A stretch of 22,424 nucleotides of DNA, taken from IMG/VR virus record IMGVR_UViG_3300020469_003426, positions 1 through 22,424 of that record; one strand, written 5' to 3'. Source of the DNA: a virus. Positions 571 to 11,386 of the stretch are shown piece after piece (position 1 is the stretch's first letter; every line of letters starts with the position of its first letter). The notes under the pieces are model-generated. The model saw only the letters and a list, made by a program, of their open reading frames with translations. It was not told the origin of the DNA and searched no databases. The translations under genes and the position numbers were made by a program.

Positions 571-596
571 ATACTACGGTTTCCCCTCCCTGTCAA
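568..596 (-). promoter_or_regulatory. Sigma-70-type (early) promoter of psbA
   Basis: Read on the minus strand, TTGACA (596-591) and TATTAT (573-568) are separated by exactly 17 nt. The -35 box is a perfect consensus and the -10 box matches five of six. The -35 box contains the TGA stop of the upstream 835-residue gene, so the promoter is packed against that gene's end. Three other promoters of the same design occur in the window. Confidence 0.75.
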
Positions 597-3100
597 GCCT
601 TTTTCCCAAGAAGCGTTTTGAGTTTTCTTGCCTTCGCCTTGAGATCCATTGCTTTCTTTGCCTTTGCATCAATTTCTGGGTTGCCTGTGGGTGGCATTGA
701 TTCTGCGCTATGGGGGTCTAATCCATTATAGTATTTTGAAGCTCTCTGTCCATTAACCAGATCTGGATGATATCCATTTATAGTTTTAGGTGGTGGATCA
801 TTTGGATATCCATTCTTGGCTGGTTTATCTGGATAGTCAATTTCTTTCTTCAGAGATTTTGAAACCTTTTTAAATAAAGGATCTTTATCAGCAGATAAGG
901 TTTCCTGTTCATCTATTTTATTTCGATTAAATGGTGTTTCATAATTTGGATTTTGTTTCCATAATGCCTTTTCATGAGCAATAATATTTAATTGTTCTTG
1001 GAGTTCTCTATCCTTTTTCTTTTTAAGATTATCACTAACAATCATATTCCAGTATTGATCACCATGACCAACCCTGTCATACACAATATTCATTCTTTCA
1101 CTTGTCTCATAACCAACCCAATCTTTATCTTTTTGTCTCCACCTTTGTCCTCTTGCATTTCCAGAAGCAACTAGTTCGTCACTAACTTGAGACGCTGTTT
1201 TATCTGGAGTATTCTGAGCAGAATACTTACCTGCAAAATTCATTTTATATTTCTTGGGAAGTTCTGGAACTTCATATGGTTTCTTTATATTTTTCAGAAT
1301 TTTTTTTCTAGATTCTGTGAGAGTAAAAGAAGTAGTATATGACTTGGATTCAGATTTATTACCAGATTTTTGGTTCAAAATACTTTTTAACTCTGGGGGG
1401 ATGTCACTACCACTATATGATGTTTGTGAGTAAACTTGTCCATATCCACCACCAGTTTTCTCAACTTCACTTTCAGGAAATCCCAATTGTGTAAGTGCTT
1501 TTCTGATAGCAACAACATTTGATGCTGTACCTTGAACGGCACCAGAAGATAAATCTTTTGATGTTTTTGCAAGTCCATCAGAAAAAGACTTCATTGCCTC
1601 TGGGTTATCGCTTAGATAATCATATGCATTATCATAAGTCTTACCAGGTTCTGATTTACCAGTTTTATCATTAAAGGTACTGCCTGTTGTAAAGGTTTGA
1701 CCAGTGGTAACTGCGTTTATAATGTCAGCAGCAATTGGAATATCAGTTAATACATCTAGAGTAATTTCTTGAACTCTTTCGTCTGATGGTTCAGGAATAT
1801 CTCCAAATGCAGTTTGCTTATCTCCGTCAAATTTATCACCTTTTTGTCCTGTTCTTAACATCTTTTCAGATGTGATAGTGAGAGTATCAGTTTCAGGATC
1901 ATAATGAATCGTAGAACCACCCTGAGCACCCCAATCACCAGTAAGAACCTTTTCTTTATTTTCTGGATTTACTGTTGAATTAGAACTCGGTTTTGCTACA
2001 GGTCCTCCAACAGTAAGCGCATCAGCAAATTTATCAAGATCAATATTTTTAATTTGATCTGCCGCAGCTGCATCTGATAATTTAATTTCCTGTGATTCAC
2101 CAGAAAGGATTGATGATACAAGTTTTCCTGCCAACTGTTTATTATAATCACTAACACTATCAGCATCTCTGACAAAAGTGTCAACTGCTTGGTCGCCTAC
2201 TGTTGTACCTGATACCATTAATCCAAGTTTTGTAAGAGCACCAAGTCCAAGAGCAAAAGCACCTTTAACAAGTCCAAAAGTTAAACCAAGAAGACCTAAA
2301 TCTCCGAGAGGTGATGCTGTTTCACCACCTTTTACAAAATCATCAAGACCAGCATCAATCAATTCTTGCTTCTCTGCAGCAGTAAGAGATTTTGGATCTT
2401 TAGTTGCCTTGTCGAGTAACTCCTTCAATCTTTTAATTTTGGGATCTGTGGGAGTAGGTTGATCATTATTACCCGCAAGTTCTGGATGGTCTAATTCATA
2501 TGGATCAGAAGTATTAATTCTACCAGTCATAATGTATTCACCTATTCTGCTAAGGAGAGCACTTCTTTCTGCAGAGGTCGCGTCAACGATCGCACTTAAT
2601 CTATCATATTCAGTATTTGGACTTGGACCATTAAACCAGGTATTCAGCAAACTAAGAGCTTGTAATAAAGATCCGTTATCACCTTGTGCCGACAAAGCAT
2701 CTACTTGTGCCGACAATGCATTTGATGCTGGTATATATACGTTATTAAAATAATCAAGTGCAGCATTCTGTTCCTCTTGTTGCCTTGTTCCAAGATCATC
2801 ATATTGAGTACCAGAATCCTTTATAAATGATGCTGATAAATCAGTACCTAATAATTCCAAGGTAAGATTTTCTAACGTATGTCCTCTAAGATATCCAAAT
2901 GAAAATGGTCCTCCTTGCGTTCTTAACCACCTAATATTAGCTGCACTAACTGGATAGTTTTGTACCCTACCACCGCCAGTTACTTCACCATCTTGATTAT
3001 TGGCATAGGGACCAGTATCATCACCATCAGCATTTCTAAAAAATGCAGGTCCATCTGGTTCCTGTTCTTGTAGGTTTATAATATCTCTAACTCTTTTCAT
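593..3100 (-). CDS. Large protein of unknown function, possibly virion structural
   Basis: This 835-residue protein has no domain I can name with confidence. It is mostly polar, with low-complexity Gly/Asn/Ser/Lys stretches, and its only long hydrophobic part is a glycine-rich segment at about residues 263-302. Residues 128-141 contain a short repeat (ALSAQ twice), mirrored in the DNA at 2683-2720. The C-terminal 230 residues are rich in Lys, Pro and Asn and end in a basic coil (AKARKLKTLLGKKA). No signal peptide is seen. The ATG overlaps the stop of the preceding 286-residue gene (ATGA), so the two are probably translated together. Size, composition and pairing suggest a cyanomyovirus virion or injected protein, but that is inference. 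Confidence 0.85.
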   Translation of the reverse strand: MKRVRDIINLQEQEPDGPAFFRNADGDDTGPYANNQDGEVTGGGRVQNYPVSAANIRWLRTQGGPFSFGYLRGHTLENLTLELLGTDLSASFIKDSGTQYDDLGTRQQEEQNAALDYFNNVYIPASNALSAQVDALSAQGDNGSLLQALSLLNTWFNGPSPNTEYDRLSAIVDATSAERSALLSRIGEYIMTGRINTSDPYELDHPELAGNNDQPTPTDPKIKRLKELLDKATKDPKSLTAAEKQELIDAGLDDFVKGGETASPLGDLGLLGLTFGLVKGAFALGLGALTKLGLMVSGTTVGDQAVDTFVRDADSVSDYNKQLAGKLVSSILSGESQEIKLSDAAAADQIKNIDLDKFADALTVGGPVAKPSSNSTVNPENKEKVLTGDWGAQGGSTIHYDPETDTLTITSEKMLRTGQKGDKFDGDKQTAFGDIPEPSDERVQEITLDVLTDIPIAADIINAVTTGQTFTTGSTFNDKTGKSEPGKTYDNAYDYLSDNPEAMKSFSDGLAKTSKDLSSGAVQGTASNVVAIRKALTQLGFPESEVEKTGGGYGQVYSQTSYSGSDIPPELKSILNQKSGNKSESKSYTTSFTLTESRKKILKNIKKPYEVPELPKKYKMNFAGKYSAQNTPDKTASQVSDELVASGNARGQRWRQKDKDWVGYETSERMNIVYDRVGHGDQYWNMIVSDNLKKKKDRELQEQLNIIAHEKALWKQNPNYETPFNRNKIDEQETLSADKDPLFKKVSKSLKKEIDYPDKPAKNGYPNDPPPKTINGYHPDLVNGQRASKYYNGLDPHSAESMPPTGNPEIDAKAKKAMDLKAKARKLKTLLGKKA

Positions 3101-3957
3101 TTTTTTCCGGGGGTATAATTTTTTACTTTAGAATTAAATGTTTTTAAAACATGATGCATTTGTTTTATTGACATTTGCTTTTCAGATGCCATGCTTCCAA
3201 GTTTAAAACCCATATCTTCAATGGAATCTCCAGATTTTATATATCCGTTAATTGTAGTTTGAATTTCACTTTTTTCTTTGTTTGTAAAAAATACTTCCAC
3301 TTTATCAGGATTCTCATTTGGACCTATACCATTACCACTTCTCATATTATCAGGAACATTTGGTAAATTCAAATTTTCAGAAAGACCTCCACCATAAAAA
3401 TAAGGAACATCTTTAATATAATCTCCAAGAGAAATTCTTTCTTTCACCCACTGTGCCATTTCAAGAGTAAAGTTTTGATTGTAAATTGTCAATCCATCTT
3501 GAGTTCCATTCCAAACTGGATGAGAACCATTCATATTACGTTCCCATTGTCCATCAATTTTTGCAAGTAAAACAAATTGTCTAGTATCTTTCTGAAGATA
3601 TCCAATACTAGTATATGATCCTGATTTTGTGGAGACAAACTCATCTACAATTGGTCCCAAAATAAATCCTTCTGATTCGGGAGGTAACTTAGAAAAAACT
3701 GTTCCATCTTCACCAATCAATCCTGAAGTATCTTGACCTGTTGGGTCATATACAAGATAATCCTGACTAAAATCAGAATGTTGTGGTTTATCAAATTCAC
3801 CACCACTCCAATATTTTTCTGTAGGTTCTATTTCAACTGATTTTTTACCATAAACACCAGTCGTATTGTTTGTTGGAAGTGCTTCAAGCAATCGCAATTT
3901 CTCATCAATACTCTTATTGTTTAATTGTTTTAATGCTTTGCTATACCGATTTGCCAT
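3097..3957 (-). CDS. Conserved-type phage protein of unknown function
   Basis: This gene encodes 286 residues from ATG 3957. The frame can extend to a GTG at 3966, but the ATG product (MANRYSKALKQL) looks more natural. No signal peptide or membrane segment is seen. The middle (about residues 60-190) is rich in Gly, Tyr and Trp, as in many beta-rich structural proteins, and the C-terminus is basic and helical. It is the first gene of a two-gene unit with the 835-residue gene, joined by an ATGA overlap. It diverges from the plus-strand genes at 4076, with about 120 bp between. The function is not recognised; a virion component is a reasonable guess. Confidence 0.8.
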   Translation of the reverse strand: MANRYSKALKQLNNKSIDEKLRLLEALPTNNTTGVYGKKSVEIEPTEKYWSGGEFDKPQHSDFSQDYLVYDPTGQDTSGLIGEDGTVFSKLPPESEGFILGPIVDEFVSTKSGSYTSIGYLQKDTRQFVLLAKIDGQWERNMNGSHPVWNGTQDGLTIYNQNFTLEMAQWVKERISLGDYIKDVPYFYGGGLSENLNLPNVPDNMRSGNGIGPNENPDKVEVFFTNKEKSEIQTTINGYIKSGDSIEDMGFKLGSMASEKQMSIKQMHHVLKTFNSKVKNYTPGKK

Positions 3958-3978
3958 CCAACGCACTAATCTTTTATA

Positions 3979-4075: not shown

Positions 4076-4570
4076 ATGAAAAGATTGTTGCCATTAATAA
4101 TGCTTTTGATGACAGCAACTGCCGCTAATGCTGGCGGAATTGTTTCTAAACATGCTTCTAGTGTTCAACTTACAGTTGATGCTGCCAGAACTCAAGCAAC
4201 CAGAATTGGTTCATCATTCAGCATCAGTGGTTCAAATGTTGATACCACCGATGGTACGACTGCACATACCGTTTCTGCAGGAACCATTACATCTGGAATT
4301 TATGCTCCAGGAACAATTTCTGCTACTCAAGATACAGCGGGTTCAGCATTCTCATTTACTCAATCATATACTCAAGGCGATGCAGTGCCAACTGCTGCCC
4401 CTACTGTAGGTCAAGTGCCTAACTTTTCTAGCACCCTTAGTTACACTGCAGGTGCTGCTGGAGATCTTGCTGGAACTGTCACCTCTGCTGGAGTCATCTC
4501 CATCACCGCAGGTGGAGCTGGAACCAGTGGAACCGGACAATTCGTTTCTGAGATCACCATAATTGACTGA
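4076..4570 (+). CDS. Small exported protein, function unknown
   Basis: This 164-residue protein has a classic signal peptide at residues 1-19 (MKRLLPLIMLLMTATAANA; basic start, hydrophobic core, AxA cleavage site). The mature part is almost entirely small and polar residues (Gly, Ala, Ser, Thr), with alternating patterns typical of beta-rich surface or fibre proteins and no cysteine. It is the first of three plus-strand genes inside a minus-strand genome and starts 29 nt after a late-type promoter box. No enzyme motif is visible. It may be a surface or adhesion protein of the virion or infected cell, but this is not shown by the sequence. Confidence 0.85.
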   Translation: MKRLLPLIMLLMTATAANAGGIVSKHASSVQLTVDAARTQATRIGSSFSISGSNVDTTDGTTAHTVSAGTITSGIYAPGTISATQDTAGSAFSFTQSYTQGDAVPTAAPTVGQVPNFSSTLSYTAGAAGDLAGTVTSAGVISITAGGAGTSGTGQFVSEITIID

Positions 4571-4581
4571 GGAAATTCGCA

Positions 4582-5031
4582 ATGACCCGTTTTGGAAAGA
4601 CGATATTCTGGTCTGCAATGTCTGTGGTGGGTGCAAGTGTCATACTTGCTCCTGCCCAGGCGGTCCCCGTGGTGCCAAACTTCACACAGGGAAGTATGAC
4701 CAGTCACACAGAAACAACTCAGAAGATAACTGAGACTATAAATTCAATGGATTACAACACAGGGTATCAATACTCTGCGACTGGCAGTGGTGTTGAACCC
4801 GTAAACGGAACCTTAAGTCCTGAAAGAGGTTCTACTAACGTATCAATAAATGGAGTGACTTCATCATGGACAGGAGTAACAAATACGCCACAATTCGTCC
4901 AAACGAATCCGGGGAGTTCGTTTCAGTTTACAGAAACTTACAGCGGCCCTGGACTTTCAAATCACACGATCATTCAGAGAGAAACCGACGTAACAAGTAT
5001 AACAGATACTACAAGTATATTCCAACAATAA
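4582..5031 (+). CDS. Small exported protein, function unknown
   Basis: This gene encodes 149 residues with a signal peptide at about residues 1-27 ending in APAQA. A good Shine-Dalgarno sequence (GAGGAA) lies 7-8 nt before the ATG, and the gene starts 11 nt after the previous stop. The mature part is Thr/Ser-rich, cysteine-free and likely beta-structured, like the preceding protein. The two share the general pattern of a signal peptide followed by Ser/Thr-rich strands with an S-F-x-F-T motif, so they may be diverged relatives (inference). The start of the next frame lies within this gene's 3' end. Confidence 0.87.
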   Translation: MTRFGKTIFWSAMSVVGASVILAPAQAVPVVPNFTQGSMTSHTETTQKITETINSMDYNTGYQYSATGSGVEPVNGTLSPERGSTNVSINGVTSSWTGVTNTPQFVQTNPGSSFQFTETYSGPGLSNHTIIQRETDVTSITDTTSIFQQ

Positions 5032-5786
5032 TTTCACTACTCTTTACTCTTCCGGTAAATGCAGAAACTGTTGGCGGGGTCAGTGCTACCGCTTCTCCTG
5101 TTGCTAATTCTAGTGGTAGCGTCACAAACCAGGCGATCCAGGTTTTACAGGGACCATATATTACCAATACATATGGGGCGGGGATACAGTGTCAGGGTCC
5201 TACATTAAACCTTACCCCATATGTAACTGGTGCAGGTTCAATACAAAGACCTTGGGAACCACATTATATGGACCCAGTATATGATATCAGTGATAATTAT
5301 GGCGCGTTTGATGAAAATGGAAATCAAACAGGAGATGGTATCGTTGATAACCCAGGCGATATCCTATTTCGTAAAAGAACTAGAACTGGACAAAAAGATA
5401 CCTATAGTCTATCTGTAGGTTTCTCTGCTACGTGGTCGCGACCATTAGATAGAAAACTACAAGACCAATGCAAAGAAGCAGCTGCTGCAAACATCGCTTT
5501 GATGGAACAAGCAACTGCCAATAAAAGATTAGACTTTGAGATTGCAAGACTTAAAAATTGTGGAGAACTTATACAAAAGGGTATTAGTTTTCACCCCAAG
5601 AGTCCTTACTATTCGGTGTGTGCTGATGTAGTAGTAAAAAATACAACTTACATCAAACCACATAAACACACTATTCCAAAACCTATTTCTTCAATGCCTT
5701 CCTTAGGGCTTGAATCGCATTCACCCGGTCGCGCTGAGCATCTTGGCGCTCCCTTACAGACTCAACCTTTACTACCTTCCCCCTGA
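4866..5786 (+). CDS. Exported-type protein of unknown function; true start uncertain
   Basis: The coordinates are those of the longest frame (306 residues). The part that looks like a real protein begins near 5019: a hydrophobic stretch with a signal-peptide end (LLFTLPVNA, residues 58-66), then Gly/Ser/Pro-rich sequence. A helical region follows from about residue 195 and then two cysteines (KNCGEL, VCADVVV). The first 50 residues lie inside the preceding gene and look like an out-of-frame shadow. No ATG, GTG or TTG lies between 4869 and about 5040, so translation must begin at ATG 4866, at a rare codon (ATT 5019, ATA 5028 or ATT 5031), or by a -1 shift from the upstream gene. The 3' end overlaps the convergent gene by 104 bp, and the last 30 residues lack the character of the rest. 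Confidence 0.75.
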   Translation: MDRSNKYATIRPNESGEFVSVYRNLQRPWTFKSHDHSERNRRNKYNRYYKYIPTIISLLFTLPVNAETVGGVSATASPVANSSGSVTNQAIQVLQGPYITNTYGAGIQCQGPTLNLTPYVTGAGSIQRPWEPHYMDPVYDISDNYGAFDENGNQTGDGIVDNPGDILFRKRTRTGQKDTYSLSVGFSATWSRPLDRKLQDQCKEAAAANIALMEQATANKRLDFEIARLKNCGELIQKGISFHPKSPYYSVCADVVVKNTTYIKPHKHTIPKPISSMPSLGLESHSPGRAEHLGAPLQTQPLLPSP

Positions 5787-6489: not shown

Positions 6490-6691
6490 TGATTATATCT
6501 CCATACTCCTCAAAACTAAACTTACTTTGCACTGTTTGCTTGGCAAGTTTATCTCTGAGGGCATTAATTTTTTCATCAGTGTATTGCTGAAAGTTTCCTT
6601 TCTTCTCAACTTTTTTATAGTAATGAAGCGCATTAAGGATGATTGTATAATCCTCCATATCTAATTCAAAATTCATTTTATTAACAGTCAT
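6476..6691 (-). CDS. Small helical protein, function unknown
   Basis: This gene encodes 71 residues from ATG 6691 (MTVNKMNFELDMEDY); a second ATG at 6676 (MNFELDMEDY) is equally possible, and no strong ribosome binding site decides between them. The frame continues further upstream but there only shadows the preceding gene. The protein is charged and helical (DYTIILNALHYYKKVEKKG), without a signal peptide or membrane segment. It overlaps both neighbours by about 11-14 nt, so it is probably co-translated with them. Confidence 0.72.
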   Translation of the reverse strand: MTVNKMNFELDMEDYTIILNALHYYKKVEKKGNFQQYTDEKINALRDKLAKQTVQSKFSFEEYGDIINGNT

Positions 6692-7265
6692 TAAAGATTG
6701 ATGACACCTCAGCACCAACTGCAGACCCGGCATTCTGTCCCAGTAGGTTTGCCCAACCAACTGCTAACCATCCAATATAAGGTATACCAGTAAGCATTGG
6801 AGTAGCACTAGCGACGACGCTTGTTGCTACCATTGCACCTTGCGCTTGAGCTCCACCTTCCGCTTTGATACACTCCACGTCTTTTGCACTCAACTTTCCC
6901 TCATCATCGGCACCTCCACCGATGTTCCTAGTTCCATCCATAGTGAATTGATCTTTACGCCACTCACGGCGACTTTCAGTACCACCACCAAAGAGTCCTT
7001 TCTTATCAGTATCTGAAGATAATGATCTTTGAGATTCTAAAATAGCAGGGTCGTTTGCTTTATATTTAATAGTATATCCATCTTTACCTACGTTGACATC
7101 ATAAGATGAGTATTCACCTGTAGGAAGATTAATTGAAGGGTATTGTGGACGGTCTGCATACTTCTTATTCATATTCATAAGATGCCCTAGCACACCAATA
7201 TGTGCTACAGCAACCACACCACCAATACTTAATGCAACCCACTTAAACGGTGTCTTATTCATCAT
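6681..7265 (-). CDS. Membrane protein with two hydrophobic regions, function unknown
   Basis: This 194-residue protein has an N-terminal membrane segment at about residues 8-30. A polar middle with a Gly-rich linker follows, then a long Ala/Gly-rich hydrophobic region at about 143-186 that could form one or two membrane helices or a glycine-zipper hairpin, and finally a C-terminal Cys. The start overlaps the nuclease stop (ATGATG with TGA), with a second in-frame ATG immediately after the first. The paired hydrophobic ends would suit a membrane-acting phage protein (for example DNA entry or lysis), but nothing specific is recognised. Confidence 0.82.
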   Translation of the reverse strand: MMNKTPFKWVALSIGGVVAVAHIGVLGHLMNMNKKYADRPQYPSINLPTGEYSSYDVNVGKDGYTIKYKANDPAILESQRSLSSDTDKKGLFGGGTESRREWRKDQFTMDGTRNIGGGADDEGKLSAKDVECIKAEGGAQAQGAMVATSVVASATPMLTGIPYIGWLAVGWANLLGQNAGSAVGAEVSSIFNDC

Positions 7266-9226: not shown

Positions 9227-9234
9227 TATTTATT
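9227..9234 (-). promoter_or_regulatory. Late-promoter-like box ahead of the holin-like/petE/PTOX genes
   Basis: The minus strand reads AATAAATA, one base off TATAAATA. It overlaps the TAA stop of the HExxH gene, 22 nt before the ATG at 9205. The surrounding sequence is A+T-rich, so chance matches are possible. Confidence 0.4.
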
Positions 9235-9889
9235 TAATATAACCTTGCTCTACCAGATATTTTCTTGTCAGTGGAGTTGGTTCATATTCCATCCACATCT
9301 GACCAGCAGCACAAGCATTTAAGGCATCAGCAGTCATACCTTCAGTCTTACCTGCCCAGGTTGCTTCTGCTTCCCAAGGCACTGCAGACTTAGGATAGGT
9401 GCGTTCTACCATCTCTCGCCAAAGAGGAGGGACATTATCTTCAGGCATAATAATAGCAATCATACTATTATTAATAGTCCCTGCCATACAATCTTGTGCG
9501 GCGTGCCATCCTTCGTGTCTCATCACACTCATCAATACACCAGGGCGATGCATAAATGTTTTGTTAAGGAAGAAATTATTCCCTACAGTATGATAAACTC
9601 CACGATGGCCTACTGGAAAATACTTCTCATCTGCTAGAAACACTTTAACTCCGACCCTGTTAAGGGAAGTAAGCATGATGTTGAATTCAGTAGCAATAGG
9701 AGTAAAGTCAGAAGTATTAGGATACTGACGAGAAATATCCAAAAGGTTAGTGACTTCTTCGACTCCATCGGTACATTCCCTTAGTAACATACATCCCATC
9801 GAATCATTAGTATAGAAACCTTTAGTAGGTTCAGCAAGCACAGGAGCACTCAAACATGCTGCTGCAATTGCTGCTAATAGTTTTTTCAT
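9230..9889 (-). CDS. Exported HExxH-motif protein, putative zinc metallopeptidase
   Basis: This 219-residue protein has a clear signal peptide (residues 1-19, MKKLLAAIAAACLSAPVLA). A zincin motif, HEGWH, lies at about residues 125-129 within MRHEGWHAAQDC. About 40 residues later the acidic helix PWEAEATWAG offers a third ligand, as in gluzincin-type enzymes. The cysteines could form disulphides outside the cytoplasm. The catalytic assignment rests on the motif only; I do not recognise a named peptidase family. The ATG overlaps the preceding stop (TGATG). Together with the signal peptide this suggests a periplasmic or virion-associated hydrolase acting on the cell envelope. Confidence 0.83.
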   Translation of the reverse strand: MKKLLAAIAAACLSAPVLAEPTKGFYTNDSMGCMLLRECTDGVEEVTNLLDISRQYPNTSDFTPIATEFNIMLTSLNRVGVKVFLADEKYFPVGHRGVYHTVGNNFFLNKTFMHRPGVLMSVMRHEGWHAAQDCMAGTINNSMIAIIMPEDNVPPLWREMVERTYPKSAVPWEAEATWAGKTEGMTADALNACAAGQMWMEYEPTPLTRKYLVEQGYIK

Positions 9890-10125
9890 CAGAAAGGGAG
9901 ACCAGCAGCAGGAACAGCACCACCAGTTGCACTAGGCATTTCTGGCATATCTGGCATCAACCCTGCAACAATACCAGGAATTGCTTCAGCAATTTCTTCT
10001 ACTGCTTTCTCTCTTGCCTGTTCGATCATGACATCCGCATTCTTATAAAGATACCAAGCACCAGCAACACTAGCACCAGATACTAAAAAAGAAAACGCTG
10101 CCATCAAATTAAAAACTTTTTGCAT
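9889..10125 (-). CDS. Small membrane-anchored protein, function unknown
   Basis: This gene encodes 78 residues from ATG 10125, chosen because GAGG lies 6 nt upstream; ATGs at 10137 and 10155 lie inside the preceding gene. One N-terminal membrane helix (about residues 6-27) is followed by an acidic helical part and a Pro/Met/Gly-rich tail. It overlaps the next gene by one base (TGATG). Confidence 0.78.
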   Translation of the reverse strand: MQKVFNLMAAFSFLVSGASVAGAWYLYKNADVMIEQAREKAVEEIAEAIPGIVAGLMPDMPEMPSATGGAVPAAGLPF

Positions 10126-10339
10126 AATATGCCTCATAGTATTTTGTAATTCCACTGCAACTTACATTGCCTTGAGAGACCCAGTCATGGGCACACTCAT
10201 AAATGGATTGGTTAGTATATTTAGACTTCCGGGTGGTATCTAAATCCTTACCATATTTTTCATTTAAAATGAATAATGCTTGTTGTCGCACTTTCATTTT
10301 GTCTTCATTGTAGCGCCAATCACTTGCAGTTTCGTTCAT
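10109..10339 (-). CDS. Small soluble protein, function unknown
   Basis: This gene encodes 76 residues from ATG 10339 (MNETASDWRYNEDKM), which overlaps the preceding stop by 20 nt. The protein is mostly helical and charged, with two cysteines (YECAHDW, VSCSG), and has no signal peptide or membrane segment. The frame upstream of 10339 is a shadow of the neighbouring gene. No strong Shine-Dalgarno sequence is visible, so translation may depend on coupling. Confidence 0.75.
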   Translation of the reverse strand: MNETASDWRYNEDKMKVRQQALFILNEKYGKDLDTTRKSKYTNQSIYECAHDWVSQGNVSCSGITKYYEAYYAKSF

Positions 10340-10790
10340 GATAATTTTCAGAACCACCTTGGAAATTTTCTGATCCACCTATAGGATCAAGTTGAAGAGT
10401 TGTAGAACCACTACGGGTTGCCATCTCGTATGATATCTGATGAATATTAGGTTCAGAACTCACACTATTATACTGCATCTGCTCTTGAAAAAGTTGTTCA
10501 TTAACAATTGTTACTTGCTTTGAAGACATTGGTGGTGGTCCAAACCAAGAATCCTCTGAGAGAACTTTAGGAGCAGGAACAGTGCCAACATAACCAGTTG
10601 TTCCTCCGAACCACCCATATCCTTGAGTAAAATGTCCTGGACCACATTCAAAAGCAGGTGCTTCTAAAGCATCACACTTAACTTCTTCTTCATCAATAAA
10701 ACATTCAACATCTTCTTCTTTAAATATACCTGCTTTCTTTTTAAGAAGAGTTGTCTGAGTTTCAATAAGACGTTTAATCTTTTTGATCAT
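10320..10790 (-). CDS. Protein of unknown function
   Basis: This 156-residue protein has a basic helical N-terminus (residues 1-23), an acidic cysteine-containing stretch (CFIDEEEVKC) and a Gly/Tyr/Trp-rich middle (HFTQGYGWFGGTTGY). A Gln/Ser-rich C-terminal half follows. No membrane segment or known domain is seen. The ATG overlaps the lysozyme-like gene's stop (ATGA), so it is coupled to that gene and may be a partner in the same process. Confidence 0.78.
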   Translation of the reverse strand: MIKKIKRLIETQTTLLKKKAGIFKEEDVECFIDEEEVKCDALEAPAFECGPGHFTQGYGWFGGTTGYVGTVPAPKVLSEDSWFGPPPMSSKQVTIVNEQLFQEQMQYNSVSSEPNIHQISYEMATRSGSTTLQLDPIGGSENFQGGSENYHERNCK

Positions 10791-11386
10791 GATAAAACCA
10801 TTTGTTTAGTGTAATTATATGCATAGGTATCACGCGGACCACGAATTCCCCAACCCAACCAATAATAGGATGGAATCATATATTGTGCCACTGTTTGCCC
10901 GTTCCCCTCAAAGTCAGGAAGAACCCTGACAAAAATGTCTTCATTAATCATATAACGAGTTTGGCATTCAAGAGTGCTAGGGTCACACCCATACTTTCTT
11001 GCGAACTTACCTAACCCCAAATAACGGTTCTTAGAGGTCCACTGAATGATCCCGTAACCACCCCGATGACAATCAGTGTAAGGAACTCTAGCACCTCCCT
11101 CACATATATTGGCAGTGAACTTACTTTCCTGTTTAATGTTACCCAAGATCGTTGCCAGGGCATTTCTGTCTTTGATTTTTGTACCACGTTGCAATTCTTT
11201 TAAAACGTATTGTTCTTCTGGTGTACACTCAGGACAAATCCATGTCTTTGGAACTTCGACTACTACTTCTGCAGAAGATGGTGTTTGTTCTGTGTCATTA
11301 TTACTACTCAACCAATTAATTCCAGATACTACTGGAATAGCAGTAGCAACTAATCCAATACTAATAGCGTTAATCATGTTCTTCAT
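10787..11386 (-). CDS. Tail-lysozyme-like protein (membrane-anchored or exported)
   Basis: This 199-residue protein starts with a hydrophobic segment (about residues 4-23) that could be a signal anchor, followed by a linker containing CPEC. From about residue 75 it resembles the phage tail lysozyme domain, a lysozyme-fold peptidoglycan hydrolase: ALATILGNIKQESKF, with E87 as candidate catalytic Glu, then GGYGIIQWTS at 109-118. The signal-anchor design is typical of export-dependent endolysins, so it may serve lysis; a virion role is the alternative. It leads a run of overlapping genes to 9230. A weak promoter and a terminator lie just upstream. Confidence 0.85.
   Translation of the reverse strand: MKNMINAISIGLVATAIPVVSGINWLSSNNDTEQTPSSAEVVVEVPKTWICPECTPEEQYVLKELQRGTKIKDRNALATILGNIKQESKFTANICEGGARVPYTDCHRGGYGIIQWTSKNRYLGLGKFARKYGCDPSTLECQTRYMINEDIFVRVLPDFEGNGQTVAQYMIPSYYWLGWGIRGPRDTYAYNYTKQMVLS

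Follow-up and report, generated by a model that had tools for sequence, protein, structure and literature searches.

An exported HExxH protein family of marine cyanophages with the predicted active site of a gluzincin-type zinc metallopeptidase

Results

The HExxH gene and its genomic setting

The DNA analysed here, referred to as the window, is the whole of a 22,424-base IMG/VR virus record whose gene content is of the T4-like marine cyanophage type. By profile match it encodes, among others, a plastoquinol terminal oxidase, plastocyanin, a staphylococcal-type nuclease and a Phage_OMP barrel; a ferredoxin and a high-light-inducible-like protein are also encoded, as judged by sequence, and the best DNA matches of the window are Synechococcus phages. 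On the minus strand, at positions 9230-9889, an open reading frame with an ATG start specifies a 219-amino-acid HExxH protein of the phrog_591 family, predicted to be exported and to be a zinc metallopeptidase of the gluzincin type. This frame is under purifying selection, with a dN/dS of 0.15-0.20 against near relatives. Elsewhere in the window, two minus-strand frames of 835 and 289 amino acids (593-3966) matched nothing in Pfam or PHROG at the thresholds applied. Three consecutive plus-strand frames (4076-5786; phrog_564, phrog_650, which is DUF6322, and phrog_848) run opposite to most window genes and have signal-like or hydrophobic N-termini, which makes them candidates for additional exported proteins of the phage.

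Close to the HExxH gene, and on the same strand, are a small phrog_568 protein with one hydrophobic helix (9889-10155) and a lysozyme-like protein (10787-11386; Phage_lysozyme2, phrog_512) with a hydrophobic N-terminus, which is possibly exported or membrane-anchored. The name 'plasmid stability' attached to phrog_568 looks doubtful for the window protein. Among the closest relatives, to which all of these synteny counts are confined, the lysozyme-like gene lies upstream within 1.5 kb and on the same strand in 32 of the 62 that have room upstream, phrog_4136 is found between the two genes in 40 of 73 and phrog_4639 in 36 of 70, and a DUF6450 protein with one hydrophobic helix is also nearby in about half. 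The neighbour set in Syn33, S-RSM4, P-RSM1 and S-TIM5 differs from that of the window, and only 12 of 71 relatives have petE downstream at a distance of 1.2 kb or less. Taken together, the exported or membrane-associated neighbours argue for an envelope-directed role without fixing what that role is, and they argue weakly for one in lysis.

A signal sequence and paired cysteines

Residues 1-19 (MKKLLAAIAAACLSAPVLA; 9833-9889, minus strand) are predicted from sequence and hydropathy to form a signal sequence that is cleaved before Glu20. The N-terminus, MKKLLAAIAAACLSAPVLA followed by EP, opens with positive charge and continues into a hydrophobic core, whose KD value reaches 2.4, and a cleavage site resembling AXA, in agreement with the signal peptide of the sequence-only reading, here a Sec-type segment of 19 residues. 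Relatives conserve this type of N-terminus but not its letters. A hydropathy scan of the 219-residue protein found no second stretch hydrophobic enough for a membrane helix, and a lipoprotein is unlikely because Cys12 is not conserved in the alignment of relatives.

The cysteines that are conserved appear to come in pairs. Cys134 (9488-9490, minus strand), which directly follows the HExxH motif, is present in all 158 family open reading frames, and its probable disulfide partner, Cys193 (9311-9313, minus strand), is invariant in an alignment of 47 sequences. A probable second disulfide, between Cys33 and Cys39 (9773-9793, minus strand), is a feature of the phrog_591 branch only, being found in 32 of 32 phrog_591-type alignment rows and absent from rows of the phrog_16003 type. 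The predicted signal sequence and the conserved paired cysteines together fit an oxidising compartment.

Conservation of the putative zinc site

The motif itself, HEGWH at residues 125-129 (9503-9517, minus strand), would supply two zinc-binding histidines and a catalytic glutamate, Glu126. Further along, PWEAEA at residues 171-176 (9362-9379, minus strand) contains the predicted third zinc ligand, Glu173, together with Glu175. It had been proposed from the letters that HEGWH lies within a helix and that a Glu-rich helix follows about 40 residues later, and both proposals hold in the structural model: HEGWH is inside a predicted helix spanning residues 116-135, and Glu173 and Glu175, 44-46 residues past His129, belong to an acidic helix (167-180) that holds PWEAEATWAG. 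An HExxH motif alone is weak evidence; it arises in only 0.65% of shuffled copies of the 219-residue protein, and conservation is the stronger argument.

Indeed, where the earlier reading would have been undone by variation of these residues among homologues, no such variation was found. HExxH is kept in 158 of 158 family open reading frames at the fetched loci, Glu173 in 157 of 157 and Glu175 in 156 of 157, counts that are inflated for the part of the family fetched, as many loci were, with motif-containing patterns, which were among the short peptide patterns used to search viral contigs. Members recovered independently of the motif, by whole-protein search, likewise keep HExxH and Glu173; these come from P-RSM1, S-SM2, S-TIM5, S-RSM4, Syn33 and S-CAM7, and further from S-CREM2, MA01, S-N03, S-CRES1 and PSS2. 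In the 47-sequence alignment, which reaches down to 18-20% identity, the invariant positions are G80, G97, R124, H125, E126, H129, Q132, C134, E173, A176 and C193. Because Glu175 is missing in one member and Glu173 in none, the third ligand is more likely to be Glu173 than Glu175. The homologue in S-SCSM1 (locus 6585-6783) carries an extremely His-rich C-terminal extension (HHGFHYHPTHSHWHYH and more); this extension, missing from the other members compared, could bind metal.

A common family with few annotations

The window protein matches phrog_591, a family with no function assigned there, over its full length (profile E 4.6e-118, positions 8-225 of 226). By tblastn, 366 cyanophage records match at least 80% of its length, and in IMG/VR the gene has at least 600 matches; for comparison, a T4-like cyanophage tail-protein marker was found in 302 records, and is therefore about as common. 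The phrog_591 and phrog_16003 profiles are homologous (hhalign probability 98.8%, E 5e-17). The latter describes a shorter exported cyanophage family, found in S-CAM7, S-N03, MA01, S-CREM2, S-CRES1 and PSS2, in which the Cys33-Cys39 pair and the PTP segment at the C-terminus of phrog_591 are missing and a different extra cysteine pair is present. We group phrog_3541 with these two as cyanophage families of unknown function. Several sites per genome match phrog_16003-type queries (three in MC09, two each in S-H34 and S-N03), and a search of predicted viral protein structures also lists, by structural match alone, the podovirus proteins Syn5 gp14 and S-CBP42.

Existing annotation is sparse. Single GenBank records carry the labels 'metallopeptidase' (S-CREM2), 'proteolytic enzyme' (S-SCSM1) and 'SprT-like' (S-SCSM2R), and nearly all other deposited copies are labelled hypothetical. 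As the sequence-only reading had anticipated in leaving the protein without a family, no Pfam (up to E 10) or NCBIfam family matches it, and searches of PDB sequences, run both with the protein alone and with profiles, returned no significant family. The two Pfam models matched below threshold by the largest numbers of members are both metallopeptidases, DUF6782 (6 of 47) and Tox-MPTase2 (5 of 47). Matches to a Mycobacterium minor tail protein (E 2-6) were discarded as chance, and matches to KaiC and a maquette were discarded since they do not touch the motif. Searches of plasmids found no family member, and a literature search found no paper naming a function for the phrog_591 family; the available portions of an exoproteome study with S-RSM4 infection (PMC4949707) do not mention the protein.

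A predicted fold resembling gluzincins

An AlphaFold model built from the 47 sequences is confident overall (pLDDT 90.1, pTM 0.85) and places the HExxH helix before the Glu173 helix, an order that is gluzincin-like. In an earlier model from 22 close relatives the Glu helix was weak (pLDDT 72), which was remedied by adding distant relatives. With VIA-align the best match is the Deinococcus deserti protease IrrE (3dte; Z 6.4, rmsd 2.7 over 84 residues), followed by a Mycobacterium tuberculosis regulator related to IrrE (6d2s, Z 6.0), the lethal factor catalytic domain (Z up to 5.5, over up to 136 residues), ArdC (Z 5.2), Pro-Pro endopeptidases (PPEP; Z about 4) and minigluzincins (Z about 3.9), all of these scores lying below 8, in a range where a common arrangement can suffice. 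Nearly all top structural rows are nonetheless zincin-type or gluzincin proteins, matched over the region that holds both helices. Foldseek against the PDB gave a best E of 0.1 and none lower, which is not significant alone. Model residues 64-184 align to IrrE residues 30-124 with an end offset of 60, so that Glu173 would fall on Glu113 provided that the last helix contains no gap; the zinc ligands of IrrE are His82, His86 and Glu113 (PMC5552922). As far as the helix order and the resemblance to gluzincins go, the structural check suggested with the earlier reading came out in its favour.

The question of a host homologue

Profiles of both phrog_591 and phrog_16003 match in the Synechococcus elongatus control genome, and therefore a host homologue is likely; because the phrog_591 profile also matches in Methanocaldococcus jannaschii, these control-genome matches may be remote. 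Searching 84,980 species genomes for phrog_591-specific patterns revealed only three loci, two of them in MAGs and one on a P-TIM40-like phage contig. This last locus, an apparent 'host' copy in Nonlabens, was rejected as host evidence, being 98.8% identical to cyanophage P-TIM40. The contig concerned, NZ_RMVE01000006.1 of the Nonlabens xiamenensis 1Q3 assembly, is 188,235 bases long and has this identity to P-TIM40 (188,632 bases) over the 10.7 kb tested; it is probably, to judge from this likeness, cyanophage DNA contaminating the genome of a bacterial species.

Discussion

Proposed function and alternatives

We read the gene product as an exported, disulfide-stabilised, single-domain zinc metallopeptidase of the gluzincin type, which is probably correct given the conservation of the motif and the predicted fold. 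The idea that the gene might encode a zinc peptidase, put forward from the letters alone, is thus supported, as a prediction, by the invariant HExxH and Glu173 and by the structural matches to gluzincins. That the protein carries an exported, gluzincin-like zinc site is a very secure prediction from sequence and model; that it has peptidase activity is likely by analogy; and whether it acts on an envelope target in the host stands at even chances. In the proposed mechanism, the protein would be exported by the Sec route and lose its signal peptide, and the 200-residue mature form would reach the periplasm or the thylakoid lumen, where Cys134-Cys193 and Cys33-Cys39 would form disulfides. Conservation and topology suggest that a single zinc ion would be held by two residues of one helix, His125 and His129, together with Glu173 of a following helix. 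As in gluzincins, Glu126 would then serve as the general base that activates water for cutting peptide bonds, and the substrates cleaved during infection would most likely be envelope or lumen proteins, whether of the host or of the phage.

Several other readings deserve consideration. The gene could be a phage copy of an exported host peptidase that maintains the envelope or the photosynthetic membrane, and would then count as an auxiliary gene of host-like type whose product does not serve for attack. The profile matches in S. elongatus and the nearby plastocyanin and plastoquinol oxidase genes of the window speak for this, but the same phrog_591 profile reaches M. jannaschii, the three loci in 84,980 species genomes include one phage contig, and petE follows closely in only 12 of 71 relatives, so that we regard a host-like role as rather unlikely. 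The position of the lysozyme-like gene raises a different prospect, namely that the HExxH protein works with its product to loosen the envelope at the end of infection, either replacing spanins or assisting them. Its retention upstream in 32 of 62 close relatives, the recurrent phrog_4136 (40 of 73) and phrog_4639 (36 of 70) in between, and a lysozyme-like product that matches Phage_lysozyme2 and starts with a hydrophobic stretch are all consistent with such a partnership. However, Syn33, S-RSM4, P-RSM1 and S-TIM5 have other neighbours, synteny was scored in the closest relatives only, and the gene sits among photosynthesis genes; a role in lysis is accordingly unlikely in our estimation.

The remaining alternatives question the chemistry rather than the setting. 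A zincin fold might bind metal for some purpose other than proteolysis, or persist as a catalytically dead scaffold, and the first model did indeed weakly match, among other structures, an HExxH oxygenase domain (8s5f). Yet Glu126, which a dead scaffold would not need, is invariant in 158 of 158 members and the best structural matches are peptidases, making this very unlikely. As for the motif having arisen by chance in a structural or otherwise unrelated exported protein, its frequency in shuffled copies means that such an occurrence is expected somewhere in a large genome; this explanation is contradicted by conservation, since HExxH, Glu173, Gln132 and Cys134 are invariant across divergent homologues, and by the gluzincin-like topology of the model, and we give it almost no credence.

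It is conceivable, if somewhat doubtful, that several types of marine cyanophage share an unrecognised family of secreted metallopeptidases, carried by most T4-like cyanophages and at times twice or more by one genome, which digest or process specific host proteins of the envelope or thylakoid lumen during infection. Such cleavage may serve to prevent superinfection, for example, or to reshape the photosynthetic membrane. The predicted active site of one of the commonest unexplained cyanophage genes is testable and offers a simple loss-of-function control, and it prompts one to ask what it is that marine cyanophages cleave in the periplasm or lumen of their Synechococcus and Prochlorococcus hosts. 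What is new here is a widespread family of a known kind, the gluzincin type; what was already known amounts to scattered peptidase-type labels on single records.

Comparison with known metallopeptidases

The closest structural counterpart is IrrE/ImmA (MEROPS M78), whose similarity spans both the HExxH and the Glu helices. IrrE has further domains and acts in the cytoplasm, where it cleaves a repressor, whereas the cyanophage protein is predicted to be exported and has conserved cysteines; no M78 profile of Pfam matched the window protein at any E up to 10, and none was among the matches listed for the 47 aligned members. The gluzincin domain of the lethal factor catalytic domain and the Pro-Pro endopeptidases (M34) covers most of the model. 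Among these, PPEP-1 is a small secreted peptidase. Sequence identity to M34 is only about 10-15%, with no profile match, and the cyanophage protein is without receptor-binding or other domains. The minigluzincins abylysin, jannalysin and selecase are also small single-domain gluzincins and are matched by both Foldseek and VIA-align (Z below 4); they are not known to have signal peptides or disulfides.

Two other affiliations were considered and rejected. HExxH is shared with SprT/Spartan-like proteins and one cyanophage member carries an SprT-like label, but the SprT profile matches 1 of 47 members, at an E of only 0.14, and the S-SCSM2R protein so labelled is actually a phrog_591 protein. The metzincin signature HExxHxxGxxH/D differs from HEGWHAAQDCM, in which Gln132 replaces the glycine and no third His or Asp is in register. 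From sequence and model, therefore, the best description looks like an unnamed, gluzincin-like cyanophage family that stands outside the named peptidase families and has the active-site anatomy of gluzincins.
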